Positions 16,495-36,891 of a stretch of DNA of 64,000 nt are shown piece after piece (within the stretch, counting starts at the first letter, position 1; the number at the start of each line of letters is the position of its first letter). Below the pieces are notes generated by a model. It worked only from the letters and a program-made list of their open reading frames with translations. It did not search any database and had not been told where the DNA came from. The stretch lies in contig CAIOAO010000074.1 in assembly GCA_903855985.1 (NCBI GenBank), positions 124,001-188,000 on the forward strand, written 5' to 3'. The translations under genes and the position numbers were made by a program. This stretch comes from an uncultured Opitutia bacterium (GTDB lineage: Bacteria; Verrucomicrobiota; Verrucomicrobiia; Opitutales; Opitutaceae).

Positions 16495-17556
16495 ATGCAT
16501 CCGTCCACCGCCGACCTGCGCATCCGTGCGACCAAGCCGCTCATGGCTCCCGCTTTGCTCGAGGAGGAGCTGCCGGTGGACGATGTTCGCGCCGCGCTGA
16601 TTGCCCGCACCCGCCGCGAGATCGAGGCGATCCTCACCGGCACGGACGACCGGTTGCTGGTGGTGGTGGGACCCTGCTCGATCCATGACACCGCGGCGGC
16701 CGTGGAGTATGCCCAGCGGCTGCACGAAGCGGCGCCCGCGTACGCGGGCGAACTCCTGCTCGTGATGCGGGTATATTTCGAAAAGCCGCGCACCGTCCTC
16801 GGTTGGAAGGGACTGATCAACGACCCGTTTCTCGACGGCAGTTTCCAGATCAATGCCGGGCTGCGGCTCGCGCGGAAACTGATGATTGATGTCACCGGAC
16901 TCGGCCTGCCGGTGGCAACGGAGTTCCTGGATACGACCCTCGGCCAGTATTACGCCGACCTCGTCTCCTGGGGCGCGATCGGCGCGCGCACGGTTGAGAG
17001 CCAGGTGCACCGCGAACTCGCGTCGGGTTTGTCCATGCCGGTGGGCTTCAAAAACCGCACCGACGGCGACCTGCAGGTCGCGGTGGATGCGATCCGCTCG
17101 GCGCGGCACCCGCACTGGTTCCCCTCGCTCACGCGCGAGGGCGCACCGGCGGTCATGGGCACGGCCGGGAATCCCAGCGGCCACCTGGTGCTGCGCGGCG
17201 GTAGCACCGGACCCAACTATTTTGCCGCCAACATCCAGACCGCGACCGGGCTGCTGACGAAAAACCAGCTGCCCCCGTACCTCATGGTGGACTTCAGCCA
17301 TGCAAACAGCGTGAAGAACCCGGAGAGGCAAACGGACGTCGCGGCTGACATTGCCGGCCAGATCTCGGCCGGGGAAAAGGCGATCGCTGCGGTCATGATC
17401 GAAAGCAACCTTCTCGGCGGATCCCAGGACTATCAGGCGAAGCCGCTGGTCTACGGCCGCAGCATTACCGACGGCTGCCTTGGGTGGGAAAAGACCCTGC
17501 CGGTCTTCGATCAGCTCGCGGGCGCGGTGAAGACGCGTCGCAAGAAGAAGACCTGA
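16495..17556 (+). CDS. aroG: 3-deoxy-7-phosphoheptulonate (DAHP) synthase, AroFGH type
   Basis: Condenses phosphoenolpyruvate and erythrose 4-phosphate, the first step of the shikimate pathway. The 353-residue protein fits the class I-alpha family: VVVGPCSIHD, MRVYFEKPRT-GWKGLINDP, ATEFLD, SWGAIGARTVESQVHRELASGL, VGFKNRTDG, and the metal-binding DFSHANS and MIESNLLGG. All expected catalytic residues (Cys in GPCS, Lys in GWKG and GFKN, His in FSH, Glu in ESN) are visible. The gene symbol could equally be aroF or aroH; feedback specificity is not assigned. Confidence 0.94.
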   Translation: MHPSTADLRIRATKPLMAPALLEEELPVDDVRAALIARTRREIEAILTGTDDRLLVVVGPCSIHDTAAAVEYAQRLHEAAPAYAGELLLVMRVYFEKPRTVLGWKGLINDPFLDGSFQINAGLRLARKLMIDVTGLGLPVATEFLDTTLGQYYADLVSWGAIGARTVESQVHRELASGLSMPVGFKNRTDGDLQVAVDAIRSARHPHWFPSLTREGAPAVMGTAGNPSGHLVLRGGSTGPNYFAANIQTATGLLTKNQLPPYLMVDFSHANSVKNPERQTDVAADIAGQISAGEKAIAAVMIESNLLGGSQDYQAKPLVYGRSITDGCLGWEKTLPVFDQLAGAVKTRRKKKT

Positions 17557-17581
17557 ACACCAGGACGAGATGGCGGGCGGT

Positions 17582-18043
17582 TCACCCCACCCGCTGCCAC
17601 TTCAGCGTCCGGGTGACCGGTTCGCCCGCAGTGGTCGCGGTCGAGAGGCGGAGAGTGAGGATGTCGCCGTCGACGCGGATCTGGCGCTGATAGGTTTGAC
17701 CGACGTTTTCCGGCGACAGCGCTGCGAGGAGCAAGGTGGAGACGCTCCCGGTCGACTCATCGACCACATAGGTCCCGAAGTACCCGTCGTAGCCGCCGCG
17801 GGCCCGGCTGTTGTTGGGCAGGGCGCTGACGGCGTCCTCCGCCGGCAGGGAGGAGCGGTCCCGCTTCATGAACTGGGCGGCGAAATTTCCTGCGCGGTCA
17901 AAGTAGAGCAAGGCGACGGGATCAGAGCCCAACGAGGGCTCCGGGCGGCGTTCACCCGCGGCGTTGTAGTCCTCGCGTGAGCGCAATGACCACGTGCCAA
18001 TGAGTTTTTCCGCGAGGGATCCGGGAGCCGCAGGGGTTTTCAT
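17582..18043 (-). CDS. lipocalin-like domain protein
   Basis: A 153-residue protein from the ATG at 18043, with the pattern KLIGTWSLRSREDYNAAGERRPEPSLGSDPVALLYFD near the N-terminus, which resembles the lipocalin-like (lipocalin_5) domain of small bacterial proteins. The body is beta-rich, including GGYDGYFGTYVVDESTGSVSTLL and ILTLRLSTATTAGEPVTRTLKWQR. There is no signal peptide. Its stop converges on the DAHP synthase gene and its start lies 19 bases after the rlmN stop, so it is likely the second gene of an rlmN transcript. The ligand is unknown. Confidence 0.7.
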   Translation of the reverse strand: MKTPAAPGSLAEKLIGTWSLRSREDYNAAGERRPEPSLGSDPVALLYFDRAGNFAAQFMKRDRSSLPAEDAVSALPNNSRARGGYDGYFGTYVVDESTGSVSTLLLAALSPENVGQTYQRQIRVDGDILTLRLSTATTAGEPVTRTLKWQRVG

Positions 18044-18062
18044 GGGGAAAGCTTGAGCTGGA

Positions 18063-19181
<1,119 letters not shown>

Positions 19182-19250
19182 CCGCGGAGGGAGTTGGAAA
19201 AATTACGGCTGGCTGATTGCCTATGGGTCTCGGAGGGCTTTCTTCGTCTC

Positions 19251-20228
19251 ATGCACTACCGCGCCCTCGGCACCAGCGATGTGAAGGTTTCGGAAGTCAG
19301 CCTCGGCTGCTGGACGATGGGCGGGCTCAACTGGGTCAACGGCCAGGCCAACGGCTGGGCCCAGGTGAACGAGGATGAGATCACCGCGGCGATCAAACGG
19401 GCGGTGGACGCCGGGGTGAACCACTTCGACAACGCCGATGTTTACGGCAACGGGAAGGCCGAGCTCATGCTGGCGCGCGTATTGAAGCGGCTCGGGCTCA
19501 AGTCCACGGACTTCGTCATCGCGACCAAGGTCGGGCACTTTCCCGGCACAGCCGCCCACGCCTACGACCCGCTGCACATCCGCCACCAATGTGAGCAGTC
19601 GCTGCAGAACCTCGGCCGCGACTACCTGGACCTCTACTACCTGCACCACGGGGACTTCGGGCCGAAGGGTGAGTGGCTGCAGGGTGCGGCGGACACGCTC
19701 AATGCCCTCGTGCGCGAGGGAAAGATCCGGCTCAAGGGCCAGAGCGCCTACAGCGAGGAGCATTTTGCCCGCGCGGTGCCGGTGGTGAAACCGATGGTGC
19801 TGCAATCGTGGGCGAATGCCCTCGCCCGCGATTTTATCCGGCCGGGCGGCGTGGTGCCGAAACTCCTCGCCGAGCACAAGATGTCCTATGTCGCGTTCAG
19901 CCCGCTCGCGCAGGGCCTGCTGCTCGACAAGTTCGACCCGGCCAAACCCCCGGTCTTTGAGGAGGGCGACCACCGCCGGAACAGCGGACGTTTCACAACG
20001 GAAAAGCTCCTCGCGCTGAAACCCAAGCTGGCACAGCTCAAGACGCGCTTTGGCGCGACAACGGAGGATCTTTCCGCCGTGGCGCAGCGTTATCTCCTCA
20101 ACCAGCCCAATCTGGCCTGTGTGATTCCCGGCTTCCGCAACGAGCGCCAGGTGGTTTGCAACCTGGCGGCCGTGAACCGCGAGCTGAGCGCGACGGACAT
20201 GACTTTTATCGAGCAAACCCTCGGCTGA
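19251..20228 (+). CDS. aldo/keto reductase
   Basis: An NAD(P)H-dependent oxidoreductase of the TIM-barrel AKR family, 325 residues from MHYRALGTSDVKVSEVSLGCW. The catalytic tetrad is visible: Asp and Tyr in FDNADVYGNGKAE, Lys in IATKVGHF, and His in LYYLHHGD. The C-terminal coenzyme-binding part has IPGFRNERQVVCNLAAV. It is closest to the potassium-channel-beta/YajO-like AKRs by eye. Start is the ATG at 19251; a long in-frame upstream extension runs antisense to rlmN and is discounted. It probably forms an operon with the next gene, seven bases away. Confidence 0.9.
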   Translation: MHYRALGTSDVKVSEVSLGCWTMGGLNWVNGQANGWAQVNEDEITAAIKRAVDAGVNHFDNADVYGNGKAELMLARVLKRLGLKSTDFVIATKVGHFPGTAAHAYDPLHIRHQCEQSLQNLGRDYLDLYYLHHGDFGPKGEWLQGAADTLNALVREGKIRLKGQSAYSEEHFARAVPVVKPMVLQSWANALARDFIRPGGVVPKLLAEHKMSYVAFSPLAQGLLLDKFDPAKPPVFEEGDHRRNSGRFTTEKLLALKPKLAQLKTRFGATTEDLSAVAQRYLLNQPNLACVIPGFRNERQVVCNLAAVNRELSATDMTFIEQTLG

Positions 20229-20235
20229 TCATCCC

Positions 20236-21210
20236 ATGAATACCGACCGTCCCCGCCGCCCGCTCAATCCCCTGGAGGATCCTGCCCGGGCTTTCCAGCA
20301 GACCCCACGGATCGTCATAGCCGGCGGCGCGGGCTTCCTGGGCCGGGCGCTGGCGCAAAACCTGGTTCAGCAGGGCCGCGAGGTGGTCATTCTTTCCCGC
20401 CGTCCGGCCCCGGCCCGCGGGCCGATCCGAACCGTGGTCTGGGATGGCAAGACGGTTGGCGAATGGGCCCGGGAACTCGACGGCGCCGAGGCGGTGGTGA
20501 ATCTCACGGGACGCAGCGTGGCCTGCATTTACACGCCGGAAAACAAGCGCGAGATCATCTCGTCGCGCGTCGATTCCGTCCGCGCCATCGCCGCCGCCTG
20601 CCAGCGCTGTGCGGTGCCCCCGCCAGTGATCGTGCAGGCGGCCTCCCTGGCCATTTATGGCGATCCCGGCGACCGCATCTGTGACGAACAGTCGCCGCAT
20701 GGCACCGGCTTTTCGGTGGACGTATGCGAGGCGTGGGAAGGGGCGTTTTTCGCCGAACCTGGCGGTCCGCGGCGGGTGGCGCTGCGCATTGGCTTTGTCC
20801 TTGGGCGTGACGGCGGGGCGCTCGAGCAGCTGGCTAAACTGGTGCGCTGGTATGTCGGCGGCGCGGCCGGCAACGGCCGGCAATACATCAGCTGGGTCCA
20901 CATTGATGATTTTTGCACCATGGTCTGCTGGTCGATTGCCAATCCCGCGGCGCAGGGGGCCTACAATGCCACCGGGCCGAATCCCGCGACCAACGCCGAG
21001 TTCATGCGCCTGCTGCGCAAAACCCTGCAACGACCCTGGAGTCCGCCGACGCCGGCGTGGGCGGTGAAGCTGGGCGCGCGCTTCATCATGGGCGCCGACG
21101 CGAGCCTCGCCCTCACCGGCCGGCGCTGCGTACCCAAGAAATTCACAGACGAGGGTTTTCAGGCCCGGCACACGGACCTCGCGGTCGCGTTCTGGGAACT
21201 GCTGCGGTGA
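20236..21210 (+). CDS. TIGR01777-family NAD-dependent epimerase/SDR protein
   Basis: A 324-residue extended short-chain dehydrogenase-like protein. It has the Rossmann loop IAGGAGFLGRALAQNL at about residues 27-42, VVNLTGRSV, TPENKREIISSRVDSVRAI and QAASLAIYGD, the standard order of the TIGR01777 (YfcH/SulA) group, and a C-terminal DUF1731-like segment. The usual YxxxK pair is not obvious (the Tyr is in AIYGD), as in many of this family. Activity is unknown. It follows the aldo/keto reductase closely and ends near a hairpin. Confidence 0.82.
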   Translation: MNTDRPRRPLNPLEDPARAFQQTPRIVIAGGAGFLGRALAQNLVQQGREVVILSRRPAPARGPIRTVVWDGKTVGEWARELDGAEAVVNLTGRSVACIYTPENKREIISSRVDSVRAIAAACQRCAVPPPVIVQAASLAIYGDPGDRICDEQSPHGTGFSVDVCEAWEGAFFAEPGGPRRVALRIGFVLGRDGGALEQLAKLVRWYVGGAAGNGRQYISWVHIDDFCTMVCWSIANPAAQGAYNATGPNPATNAEFMRLLRKTLQRPWSPPTPAWAVKLGARFIMGADASLALTGRRCVPKKFTDEGFQARHTDLAVAFWELLR

Positions 21211-31509: not shown

Positions 31510-32784
31510 TTAGGGCCGCCGGAGGGTGATCACGCACTCCAGGTGCCGGGTCTGGGGGAACAGGTCGAACGGCTGCACGGCGGAAAGGACATACCCGGCG
31601 GCAAGGAAGTCCTTCAGGTCGCGCATCTGCGTGGCCGGATCGCAGGAGACATACACCACCGCGCGCGGACCGAAGGCGAAGAGCTGGGCGAGGAAGGCGG
31701 CGTCGCAGCCTTTGCGCGGCGGATCAATGATCACCGCGGTGTCGGCGGCGGGAAACGTGAGACCGGCGAAGATCGCGGCGGCGTCACCGGCCTGGAACGT
31801 GGTGTTGGTGATGCCGTTGGCCGCGGCGTTTTGCCGGGCGAAGGTGATGCTGCTCTCGCTGATCTCGATGCCAGCCACGCGCTCGAAGGCCGGGGCGGCG
31901 GTCAAGGCGAAGAGTCCGCTGCCGCAGTAGGCGTCGACGAGGAAACGAGCCCCGCTGGCCGCGGCCTGGGCGCGGACGTAGCCGGTGAAGGCCGGGAGGA
32001 TGAACGGGTTGTTCTGGAAGAAATCGCGGGCGAGGAAGCGGAGTTTCAGGTCGCCGACGGTTTCGGTGACGATGGCATCGTAGTCGGTCGTTACCTCGCC
32101 GCTGGCCTCGCGGAGCAGCAGCGTACCGCCGCGGGTGTAGGTCGCCTGGCGGGCGTGGGCCTCGGCGCGCACGGTGGTGAGCCGCGTGTTGATGGCGGGG
32201 GTGGCGATGGGGCACTGCGGCACGTCGAGGATGTCGAAGCGCGTGCCCTGCCGCAGGAAGCCGATGGGAATCGGCCGCTCGTCGCGCGGCGGATTGAAGT
32301 GCGGCGTGATCTTGGACCGGTAGCCCAGCTCCTGGGGCGATGCGATGACGGGGGCGACGGCGAACTCGACGCCGGCCATGTGCTGCAGGAGTTCGGCGAC
32401 CTGGCGCTGTTTCCAGGCGAGCTGTTCGGGATAGGCGAAGTGCTGGTACTGGCAGCCGCCGCAGCGGCCGAAGAGCGGGCAGGAGGCGGCCACGCGGTGC
32501 GGTGAGGGCGTCAGGACCGCGACCAGGTCGGCCTCGGAGAAATTCTTGTGGTTGCGGAACACCCGCACCCGGACGCGCTCGCCGGGCAGGGCGAACGGCA
32601 CCATCACGACCCACCCGGTGGAATTTTCGATTTTCGATTCCCGATTTTCGATCTCCGGCAACCGGACCCGGCCCAGGCCGGAGCCCAGGTTGGTGAGCGT
32701 GGCGATCTCCAGCTCGAGTTCGGCATGGTACGGGAAAGGGAGGTCGTTGAATTTCTTTTTCACCACGAAAGACACGAAATACAC
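31510..32784 (-). CDS. class I SAM-dependent RNA (uracil-C5) methyltransferase, RlmD/RumA-like
   Basis: TrmA/RlmC/RlmD family enzyme making m5U in rRNA or tRNA. Order: TRAM domain (LELEIATLTNLGSGLGRV ... VVMVPFALPGERVRVRV), iron-sulfur cysteines CPLFGRCGGC plus Cys in VPQCPIA, then the methyltransferase core DAYCGSGLF, IIDPPRKGCD and the nucleophile motif VYVSCDPATQMRDL. Inside the TRAM loop an IENRESKIENS stretch (residues ~45-55) is encoded by heptamer repeats. No ATG exists at the 5' end; the only early starts are GTGs at 32784, 32775, 32766 and 32763, all within a hairpin arm. Whether the target is U747 or U1939 is not determined. Confidence 0.88.
   Translation of the reverse strand: MYFVSFVVKKKFNDLPFPYHAELELEIATLTNLGSGLGRVRLPEIENRESKIENSTGWVVMVPFALPGERVRVRVFRNHKNFSEADLVAVLTPSPHRVAASCPLFGRCGGCQYQHFAYPEQLAWKQRQVAELLQHMAGVEFAVAPVIASPQELGYRSKITPHFNPPRDERPIPIGFLRQGTRFDILDVPQCPIATPAINTRLTTVRAEAHARQATYTRGGTLLLREASGEVTTDYDAIVTETVGDLKLRFLARDFFQNNPFILPAFTGYVRAQAAASGARFLVDAYCGSGLFALTAAPAFERVAGIEISESSITFARQNAAANGITNTTFQAGDAAAIFAGLTFPAADTAVIIDPPRKGCDAAFLAQLFAFGPRAVVYVSCDPATQMRDLKDFLAAGYVLSAVQPFDLFPQTRHLECVITLRRP
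32621..32656. repeat. period-7 repeat inside the RlmD-like gene
   Basis: Degenerate tandem 7-mers based on GATTTTC (GATTTTC, GATTCCC, GATTTTC, GATCTCC in sequence order) lie in frame in the methyltransferase gene. Read on the minus strand they give a peptide with a 7-residue period, IENRESK-IENS. A related tract occurs in oleC at 36345-36375. Confidence 0.75.
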
Positions 32785-32839
32785 GAATGGCCCGGAAACG
32801 AAGATGTTTTATTTCGTGTGTTTGGTGTATTTCGTGGTG
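32761..32839. repeat. period-9 hairpin between divergent RNA methyltransferase genes
   Basis: Left arm 32761-32787 and right arm 32813-32839 are 27-base inverted complements with three mismatches. Each arm is three tandem degenerate 9-mers of the CACGAAAGA type. The left arm contains all the candidate start codons of the minus-strand methyltransferase; the right arm ends 10 bases before the GTG start of the plus-strand one. Confidence 0.85.
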
Positions 32840-32849
32840 ACCTCATCCC

Positions 32850-33653
32850 GTGACCCCCGAGAAAATCACCAGTCTCCAGAATCCGCGCGTGAAGCAGCTC
32901 GTGAAACTGCGTGACCGGCGTCCGCGGGACGAGGCGGGGGTCTTCCTCGTCGAGGGCTACCGGGAAATCCGGCGGGCGCTCGAGAAGTCGGTCCGGCTGA
33001 CCGAGCTGTATTTTTCCCCGGAGTGGTTTTTGGGCGAGAATGAGCCCGCGCTGATCGAGCAGGCCCGGGCGGCGGGGGCGCAGGTTTTTGAGCTGACCAA
33101 GGACACCTTTGCGAAGGTCGCCTACCGCGAGCGGCCGGACGGGCTGCTGGCCGTTGCACCCCAATGGCGGCGGAGCCTGGAGGAGCTGACGCTGCCGGCC
33201 GCGCCGTTCCTGCTCGTGGTGGAGGCGATCGAGAAACCGGGCAACCTGGGCACCATCCTGCGCAGCGCGGATGCCGCGGGGTGCGACGCAGTCATCGTCT
33301 GCGACCCGGTGACGGATATTTTCAATCCCAACGTGGTGCGGGCCTCCACCGGTGTACTGTTCTCCGTGCCGCTCGTCGTTGCCGAAAGCACGGCGGTGCA
33401 CGCGTGGCTCAAGGAAAAGAAGGTCCGCACCATCGCCACGACCCCGGCGGCTCAGACCCTCTACACCGCGGCGGACCTGCGCGGACCACTGGCCGTCGTA
33501 ATGGGCAGCGAGCAGTACGGGTTGAGTGAATTCTGGCTGAAAAACGCCGACCTGCCGGTGCGGATCCCGATGGCGGGGCAGGCGGATTCGCTGAACGTCG
33601 CGATGGCGACTATCATCACGCTGTTCGAAGCGGTGCGGCAGAGAAGCGTTTAG
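32850..33653 (+). CDS. SpoU/TrmH-family RNA 2'-O-methyltransferase
   Basis: A 267-residue knotted SPOUT methyltransferase. The N-terminal L30e-like RNA-binding domain has ITSLQNPRVKQLVKLRDRR and FLVEGYREIRRAL. The C-terminal SPOUT part shows EAIEKPGNLGTILRSADAAG (motif 1, with Asn and Arg), VMGSEQYGLSEFWL (motif 2) and IPMAGQADSLNVAMATII (motif 3). This matches the TrmH/RlmB/TsnR group for ribose methylation of rRNA or tRNA; the exact site is unknown. The start is GTG at 32850, 10 bases after a hairpin arm. Confidence 0.92.
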   Translation: MTPEKITSLQNPRVKQLVKLRDRRPRDEAGVFLVEGYREIRRALEKSVRLTELYFSPEWFLGENEPALIEQARAAGAQVFELTKDTFAKVAYRERPDGLLAVAPQWRRSLEELTLPAAPFLLVVEAIEKPGNLGTILRSADAAGCDAVIVCDPVTDIFNPNVVRASTGVLFSVPLVVAESTAVHAWLKEKKVRTIATTPAAQTLYTAADLRGPLAVVMGSEQYGLSEFWLKNADLPVRIPMAGQADSLNVAMATIITLFEAVRQRSV

Positions 33654-35203: not shown

Positions 35204-36891
35204 GCGGCGGGGACCTCGTAAAATTTTGCCGTCACGGCCCACCGCGCGAGCGTGAGGCGGTGGATCTTGGCGTTATGGCGCACGTCCACGGGGAATTTCG
35301 GATGAAAATAAAACCGGCTGATGGCGGCGGTGTGCGGCTGCGACAACGCGAGCGAGCGCAGTTCGCGGGCGAAGGCCTGGCCGGCGGCGGCGTTTTTTGG
35401 GCAGGCCTCAATCACGAGTGCGGGTTGCTGCCGGCCGGATTCACCCAGGCCGATGAGGGCGCAGCGCGTGACTTGGGGATGGGCGCGGAAGACCTGCTCG
35501 CAGGGTTCCGTGAAGAGCGGGCCGGCGGCGGTTTCCACCCGCTCAGCTTTGCGTCCGCAGAACCAGAGACGCCCGGCCGGATCGAAGTAGCCGCAGTCGC
35601 CCATGCGGTGCCAGAGGCGGGCGCCGTCGCGGATTTTTGCCGCGGCGGTGGCCTCGGGGAGGGCGTCGTAGGTTTGGGTGACGACAGGACCTTGCACGAT
35701 GATTTCGCCGATCTGGCCGGCGGGAAGTTCGCGGACCTCAGCGAACGTGGCGAGGGGGGCGTCGGAGACGGCGATGATTTTGACGGTGATGCCGGGCAAA
35801 GGCCGGCCGACGCAGGCGCCGCGGACGGAGGTGGAATCGACTTCACCGGCGGAGATGGTGGCGAGGGGCAGGGCCTCGGTGGCTCCGTAAGGGCTGTGGA
35901 GTTGTCCGCGGGAAAGGAAGACCCCGGAGTTTTTCCAGAGCGTAGCGGGGACCGGGGCGCCGGCGCTGAGGACGCGGCGGAGGCTGGGCAGGGTGATCTT
36001 TTGGGCGAGACAGTGGTCGCTGATCTTGGCCCACAGCGTGGGCGAGCCGAAGGAGTTGGTGACGTTTTCCTGGAGGATGGCCTGGACAATCTTGGCGGGG
36101 TCGACTTCGGCGGGGCGGCTGGGATCAATCTCCGGGACGATGGTCGTCATCCCGAGTGCGGGGTTGAAAAGCGCGAAGATCGGCAGCATCGGCAGGTCGA
36201 TTTCGCCGGGGGTGATCCGGTAGGTGTCACGGATGAGCTGCACCTGCGCCTCGAACATGCCGTGTTTGTAGCAGACACCCTTGGGCGCGCCGGTGGAGCC
36301 GCTGGTGAACAGCACGGCTGCCAGGTCGGTGGCCGCGCTGTTCACGATTTTCGATTTTGGATTCTCGATTTTTGACGGGGGGAGGCGCGCGGTGGTGGAG
36401 CCGGGGGCCCGGACGCGGACTTGGACGGAGGCGAAGGCGGTGCGGAAAAGGTGACTCGTGATCTGGGCGAGCGGGATGCCGACGAGGGCGCGGGGTTTGG
36501 AGCGGGCGACGCAGGCGAGGAAGTTTTTCCGACCCATGCCCGGGTCGATGACGACGGGGACGGCGCCGAGGCGGAAGAGCGCGAAGACCGACGCGATGAG
36601 CGGCAGGCCCTGCCGCACCATCACCAACGTGCGGTCGCCGCGGTTGATGCCGGCGGCGGTGAGGCGGGCGCACCAGGCGCCGACCTCGGCGTCGAGCTCG
36701 GCGAAGCTGAGCGTGAGATAGTCAATGGCGCCGGCGGCGGTGCGCCCGCGGGGGATCTTGAGCGCGGGGGCCGAGGGCCGGGCCGCGGCCATGAGCGCGA
36801 GGTGACGCGCGATATTGGCGTTGCCGGCGGTCGGCGGCACGGATTCGACAGGCTCACCGCGAGCGGGCTCAGGGCTGGCGGGCGCTGGCAT
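35200..36891 (-). CDS. oleC: OleC-like AMP-dependent ligase (beta-lactone synthetase type)
   Basis: A 563-residue ANL-superfamily enzyme. Adenylation motifs are LFTSGSTGAPKGVCY, SPYGATEALPLATI (A5), GDCGYFDPAGRLWFCGRKAE (A7-A8) and HNAKIHR with the late lysine. With OleD next to it, the best fit is OleC, which activates the 2-alkyl-3-hydroxy acid to a beta-lactone in head-to-head olefin synthesis. A period-7 repeat encodes SKIENPKSKIVNS just before the A3 motif. The first ~20 residues (PASPEPARGEPVESVP) also look repeat-derived; NIARHLALMAAARP at residue 25 is where homology should begin. No oleA or oleB occurs in the window. Confidence 0.78.
   Translation of the reverse strand: MPAPASPEPARGEPVESVPPTAGNANIARHLALMAAARPSAPALKIPRGRTAAGAIDYLTLSFAELDAEVGAWCARLTAAGINRGDRTLVMVRQGLPLIASVFALFRLGAVPVVIDPGMGRKNFLACVARSKPRALVGIPLAQITSHLFRTAFASVQVRVRAPGSTTARLPPSKIENPKSKIVNSAATDLAAVLFTSGSTGAPKGVCYKHGMFEAQVQLIRDTYRITPGEIDLPMLPIFALFNPALGMTTIVPEIDPSRPAEVDPAKIVQAILQENVTNSFGSPTLWAKISDHCLAQKITLPSLRRVLSAGAPVPATLWKNSGVFLSRGQLHSPYGATEALPLATISAGEVDSTSVRGACVGRPLPGITVKIIAVSDAPLATFAEVRELPAGQIGEIIVQGPVVTQTYDALPEATAAAKIRDGARLWHRMGDCGYFDPAGRLWFCGRKAERVETAAGPLFTEPCEQVFRAHPQVTRCALIGLGESGRQQPALVIEACPKNAAAGQAFARELRSLALSQPHTAAISRFYFHPKFPVDVRHNAKIHRLTLARWAVTAKFYEVPAA
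36345..36375. repeat. period-7 repeat inside oleC
   Basis: Four tandem 7-mers (GATTTTC, GATTTTG, GATTCTC, GATTTTT) lie in frame in oleC. On the minus strand they encode a 7-residue period, SKIENPK-SKIVNS, placed between the end of one fold segment and the adenylation motif. The unit matches the tract in the RlmD-like gene. Confidence 0.75.
36841..36878. repeat. repeat-like element at the oleC start
   Basis: GGATTCGACAGGCTCACCG and the following GCGAGCGGGCTCAGGGCTGG encode residues 5-17 of the oleC reading frame, SPEPARGEPVESV. The DNA resembles a widely dispersed TTCGACAGGCTC-type bacterial repeat that I recall; that resemblance is unchecked. It may have supplied the current start codon region. 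Confidence 0.5.

Follow-up and report, generated by a model that had tools for sequence, protein, structure and literature searches.

REP sequences and REPINs, tagged by GTAG or CGTC, are described in the parts of PMC3733652 drawn on here as short interspersed palindromes that are often arranged as dimers and occur in many copies per genome. Enterobacterial RU/ERIC repeats (passages of PMC2759123) and Rickettsia palindromic elements provide a second point of reference, being non-coding repeats that join protein-coding genes. A third comes from template switching between inverted repeats, of which homogenisation of the arms and inversion of the spacer are the two stated outcomes in extracts from PMC8604942, and which, according to extracts from PMC8794818, can create and maintain hairpins.

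Here we describe a hairpin from an uncultured member of the Opitutaceae that has something in common with each of these. Like REPs and REPINs it belongs to a set of short interspersed palindromes; however, its arms consist of 9-bp tandem units and there is no enrichment of GTAG or CGTC at the arm bases. As in RU/ERIC a non-coding repeat has joined a protein-coding gene, but here the repeat contributes a start codon; at 28 of the 80 loci tested, two divergent genes each take their start from one arm of a single palindrome at an orthologous site. Arm homogenisation and spacer inversion between relatives recall the template-switch repeats, although the systems treated in the cited parts of PMC8604942 and PMC8794818 are yeast coding DNA and RNA genes rather than a bacterial divergent start region made of 9-bp repeats. 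A text search of the literature, with most subscription journals outside its coverage, returned no earlier description of the 9-bp palindrome family; a match to the repeat string in PMC3090145 is, in the passage concerned, a Bacteroides primer. We argue, with a probability of roughly 0.55, that the hairpin is a palindrome that derives from a repeat, is old and orthologous, serves rlmD and a divergent spoU gene as their common start region in much of the Opitutaceae and is rewritten in concert.

Results

The hairpin and its neighbouring genes

The window, by which we mean the whole stretch of 64,000 nucleotides analysed, lies on contig C74 of a genome (G000) of 2.94 Mb in 110 contigs. Among the matches returned, the closest named relatives are Opitutae/Opitutaceae MAGs, the best of them (92%) an uncultured Opitutae bacterium. 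Two genes stand head to head in the window, with an inverted repeat filling the gap between them. The minus-strand gene, rlmD (31510–32766 from its likely start), encodes a 23S rRNA (uracil-C5) methyltransferase with a TRAM domain (PF01938, Pfam); its product scores 281.1 bits as the TIGR00479 RlmD equivalog, against a curated cut-off of 183.55. The plus-strand gene (32850–33653), here called spoU, opens with a GTG nine bases past the right arm and encodes an RNA 2'-O-methyltransferase with the domains PF00588 SpoU (121.9 bits) and PF22435 MRM3-like. Its product falls below the RlmB cut-off (TIGR00186, 117.4 bits versus 160.15), and we claim no more for it than membership of the SpoU/TrmH family.

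The inverted repeat comprises two 28-nt arms that are 89% complementary. The left arm (32760–32787) is made of CACGAAANA units with a period of 9 (2.7 copies); the right arm (32813–32840) ends in a TGA (32838–32840) in frame with spoU; and the 25-nt core between them (32788–32812) is the proposed site of an overlapping divergent promoter. Allowing up to three mismatches, the 25-nt left-arm sequence has two matches in the window, namely itself and the right arm, and zero in 100 dinucleotide shuffles. RNA folding predicts −39.5 kcal/mol for 32750–32850 on the plus strand (z −6.1), and a z of −3.4 for 32700–32850 on the minus strand. No sigma-70-like promoter was found in our scan. The hairpin was dropped as an intrinsic terminator, a scan of loops of 3–8 nt having found no GC-rich hairpin followed by a T run at this site on either strand. 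It was likewise dropped as a known RNA family: over 32400–33200 no match in Rfam 15 reached the gathering score, the best being to a microRNA-precursor family (29 bits versus 98).

A different repeat, with a 7-bp period (CGATTTT), occurs in frame within coding sequence at 32617–32655 and 36345–36372. The former copy encodes IENRESKIENS in a variable loop of the rlmD TRAM domain, where L034, L035 and L036 have similar inserts; the latter (SKIENPKSKIVNS) lies in an AMP-binding-enzyme gene (PF00501).

The start of rlmD

The rlmD frame is open from a TAA (32811–32809) located in the core. From there to the conserved residue N13 the only in-frame ATG, GTG or TTG codons are the minus-strand GTGs ending at 32784, 32775, 32766 and 32763 (32782–32784, 32773–32775, 32764–32766 and 32761–32763). 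This confirms the observation of an earlier note on this DNA that rlmD has no ATG and that its only starts are four GTGs, all in the left arm. In 16 aligned RlmD N-termini P16, F17, Y19 and H20 are invariant, and K10, N13 and D14 nearly so. Among 90 distinct in-group loci (defined below) the start codon is GTG in 85, ATG in three and TTG in two, and the nearest in-frame start lies six, seven or eight codons upstream of N13 in 27, 45 and 16, respectively. Two loci remain, one with a nearest start at four codons and one at five; the latter is the window, where GTG 32763 comes directly after GTG 32766. The closest relatives, L032 and L033, have a GTG six codons upstream of N13, at the position matching 32766.

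Judged by these alignments, the most likely start of rlmD is in the part of the arm nearest the gene, at GTG 32766 or alternatively 32763; the outer GTGs at 32775 and 32784 are possible starts but are not needed. A start downstream of the arm appears unlikely, because the residues just downstream are conserved in the 16 aligned sequences. The earlier note had named a CTG or TTG beyond the arm as one finding that would speak against it, and we dropped such a start since it would cut the conserved N-terminus. A start within the arm is supported, but with the gene-proximal start of the relatives the N-terminal extension YFVSFV that was to go with it need not be translated. Shine-Dalgarno-like 4-mers precede neither the rlmD nor the spoU starts (0 of 60 each, in the 60 distinct loci whose rlmD start lies inside the best inverted repeat, whatever its score). 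The called starts of the window genes show no excess of such 4-mers either (7 of 51 versus a 19% background), and the argument from Shine-Dalgarno sequences was dropped on that account.

The rlmD–spoU gap in related genomes

Loci with at least 60% RlmD identity were taken as the in-group, and identical gaps and loci present in two collections (e.g., L061 and L032) were counted once. The start of each gene was defined as the nearest in-frame ATG, GTG or TTG, with rlmD starts required to lie three or more codons upstream of N13. A divergent spoU adjoins rlmD in 84 of the 90 distinct loci, and the 80 gaps of up to 320 nt were tested; the ten loci outside the test comprise six without a divergent spoU in the stretch and four with gaps above 320 nt. 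A hairpin was called at a score of at least 15 or, in gaps shorter than 200 nt, at a score of at least 12 that also exceeded the best of six mononucleotide shuffles.

By this threshold a strong inverted repeat is present in 58 of the 80 gaps, the remaining 22 falling below it. Forty-nine of the repeats cover the rlmD start and nine cover neither start; in 28 loci, about a third of those tested, the rlmD and spoU starts both lie in arms. Wherever it lies in an arm (49 loci), the rlmD start is GTG. The other 31 loci have GTG in 27, ATG in two and TTG in two, which brings the total for GTG to 76 of the 80. Below 60% identity rlmD has ATG as its start in eight of nine loci (L051 and L053, which belong to the family of the window, and seven from its order). 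The spoU starts in arms (n = 28) are GTG in 27 cases and ATG in one, those outside arms (n = 52) GTG in 38, ATG in 13 and TTG in one; the difference in GTG frequency gives a Fisher p of 0.014, uncorrected for relatedness. CCACG is found at the rlmD start codon in nine of the 22 hairpin-negative loci, a weak sign given that CAC is the start codon itself. The shared start hairpin is not family-wide: in three deeper rows of this family (L049, L051 and L053) rlmD starts with ATG, and a divergent spoU was not found; L050, a deep row without spoU, has a GTG start.

Some individual loci deserve mention in their own right. The gap of L138 holds a palindrome of another unit, AACAGGATT, also of period 9, with the rlmD ATG outside it. 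L102 is labelled Akkermansia muciniphila, yet its RlmD groups among Opitutaceae; it is probably a mislabelled MAG. A second rlmD-like match in G018 (C1:831801–833070) is fragmented, with one piece containing an internal TGA, and may be a pseudogene.

A dispersed repeat family

The repeat unit has 74 matches in G000 (up to three mismatches), compared to two for a reversed-pattern control. Among 145 genomes sampled from the phylum, 24 contain the strict pattern (10 of the 15 that belong to the family of the window, 14 of the 130 others) and none contains the reversed control. Stretches of G000 chosen for unit matches, plus the window locus, yielded 57 groups, which simple gene calls, based on codon usage learned from the window, place between tandem (30), divergent (12) or convergent (9) genes, at a contig edge (4) or inside called genes (2). 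The start codon of a neighbouring gene lies inside the element in 14 cases, 13 of which have another start within 60 nt outside it. The sole exception is rlmD of the window; the case next nearest to it is a hydrolase gene opposite mutS, whose alternative start lies some 48 nt into the gene.

The two other copies examined are unevenly distributed among congeners. A convergent copy in G000 (C12:34682), followed by eye, is missing in the close relatives G003 and G005, while G004, G008 and G010 have other arms of similar kind at the site; no arms were seen within the 150 nt read in G009, G001, G002 and G007, and in G011 the contig ends before the site can be read. The congener G011 has only four unit matches genome-wide (up to one mismatch), of which two are the rlmD–spoU hairpin. 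What persists is one copy of a patchy repeat family, kept at one site across much of the Opitutaceae while its sequence changes.

A second hairpin with arm-borne GTG starts (L177; G000 C43:28622–28699) lies between genes for an alpha/beta hydrolase and MutS (Pfam assignments). Comparison by eye shows the hairpin with a GTG in its arm in G000, G003, G005 and G004. G007 has the GTG with a more degraded structure, and G008 a hairpin remnant with ATG; G011, G002 and G001 have no hairpin and an ATG at the matching codon. G009 is without hairpin but has GTG, and G006 and G010 have unrelated sequence upstream. The pattern is suggestive though not clean: hairpins mostly appear to go with an arm GTG and their absence mostly with ATG.

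Within 10 nt outside the base of 81 arms in the sampled G000 stretches (up to two mismatches), a scan of the outer side of the arms found GTAG, CTAC and GACG once each and CGTC not at all, against frequencies at random positions of 1.2%, 1.4%, 5.6% and 5.2% for GTAG, CTAC, GACG and CGTC, respectively. The sole match to the Y1 transposase family PF01797 in G000 is at C100:37396–37725; unit matches on that contig are at 17075–20877 and none is near the transposase. With neither tag enrichment nor a RAYT transposase flanked by units, the interpretation as a REP/RAYT element was dropped.

Turnover of arms and core

Across 99 tree rows the arm units are CACGGA in 26, CACGAA in 21, CACGGAG/CACAGAG in eight and unclassified in 33, the other 11 rows having no spoU. 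By a quick method the tree requires 43 changes among these five labels (54.9 when shuffled, minimum 4), and we conclude from this that arm units have often been replaced. The CACGAA label alone requires 18 changes and is no more clustered than expected (19.2 shuffled). The arms in the window are CACGAA and those of its nearest relatives CACGGA; in G009 nearly all of the genome copies listed are CACGGA and the arms at rlmD–spoU are not.

On average, arms pair better with their own partners: in 63 gaps not selected for pairing the own pair averages 17.2 versus 12.8 for other pairs, a value that none of 10,000 permutations reached, with no correction for relatedness. The own pair exceeds the row mean in 50 of the 63 loci and is the row maximum in only seven. 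In two pairs of loci that differ in unit (L031/L032 and L034/L035) own arms pair clearly better than crossed arms; the result is mixed for L077/L078 and L134/L130, and in L122/L125 the arms are no better paired with their own partner.

The core falls into classes. The class II core AAAAGGATTTTGTCTTTT (up to one mismatch) is found in eight of 80 family genomes, G000 not among them, with one copy in each; this single-copy result covers class II only, the window's own core being class I. It adjoins spoU in all eight, and the stretch retrieved includes rlmD as well in seven of them. L079 carries the class II core in an orientation opposite to that of six other loci (scores of 27–29 inverted versus 7 forward); its close relatives L074 and L133 have the opposite core orientation. 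The core of the window is very similar in L034 and L036, and core and right arm together are nearly identical in L031 and L036. To the eye the class I core of the window resembles class II by way of intermediates such as L105 and L125, a suggestive likeness. The changes in the arms and the inverted core are compatible with template switching, for which they are no test.

Discussion

The history that we propose begins with one copy of the interspersed 9-bp palindrome, which would have landed early at the rlmD–spoU site, its terminal GTG becoming the start of rlmD. Template switching during replication may since have kept rewriting the two arms and, in one instance, inverted the core. Overlapping divergent promoters would lie in this AT-rich core: the rlmD and spoU start codons are 65–86 nt apart, and the two promoters therefore probably overlap. 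Each mRNA leader would then correspond to roughly one arm, unpaired, and the mRNA would therefore contain no hairpin. The earlier note has translation begin in a strong secondary structure. This would require the transcript to originate on the far side of the opposite arm, within or close to the other gene, in which case the complete hairpin would extend over the start codon. A genome that lost the element would lose with it the start of rlmD, in some species also that of spoU, and probably the promoters; we propose that this accounts for the persistence of this copy while others disappear.

The earlier note had the repeat inserting over the original rlmD start, which may be read as a mobile repeat having recently landed on and replaced that start in a single lineage. 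An interspersed family in which close relatives differ in the presence of other copies would suit such an event, but most members of the genus, and many relatives farther off, have a hairpin in this very gap, core and right arm are nearly the same in L031 and L036, and one core class is specific to the locus. A one-off recent insertion is largely refuted by this orthologous occupancy; we dropped it and consider it very improbable. The accompanying claim that the repeat supplies the rlmD start fares better, in part: GTG in 76 of 80 in-group loci against ATG in eight of nine below 60% identity speaks for it, whereas the 27 of 80 loci with GTG and no qualifying arm over the start mean that the GTG may predate the hairpin. 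Both genes could have had GTG in the ancestor of the Opitutaceae, with the palindrome later abutting, or growing from, the CAC...GTG pair, and the overlap incidental. The GTG start of L050, which lacks spoU, fits this order of events too; the arm-base-like CCACG at the start codon of hairpin-negative loci tells against it weakly, as does the excess of GTG among spoU starts in arms, with its caveat of relatedness, and on balance we find it unlikely.

About equally doubtful is the idea that the hairpin is a regulatory device, an operator or RNA hairpin that controls both RNA methyltransferases, for instance by autoregulation. Long retention, paired arms, the conserved class II core and a position at both starts are what such a device might show. 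Yet the units also lie beside many other genes, in tandem and convergent as well as divergent settings, the arm sequence is not conserved, and template switching alone can, on the evidence of the cited parts of PMC8604942 and PMC8794818, yield covariation of the arms.

We therefore return to the old, repeat-derived palindrome as the preferred reading. A stronger version, which we advance tentatively and at rather less than even odds, is that one inverted repeat gives two divergent RNA methyltransferase genes their GTG starts and probably their promoters, and that this dependence locks a repeat of otherwise fast turnover in place across much of the family, including a genome from which nearly every other copy has gone, its arms still rewritten in concert and its core free to flip. 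For annotation, the consequence is that gene callers may misplace the start of rlmD, which in most of these genomes is a GTG and frequently lies within a repeat. If the proposal is true, the locus illustrates how a repeat that could once be dispensed with can no longer be removed, because it carries start codons, and the family would offer many natural replicates of palindrome arms changing at a conserved site, in which template switching and the capture of start codons could be tested.
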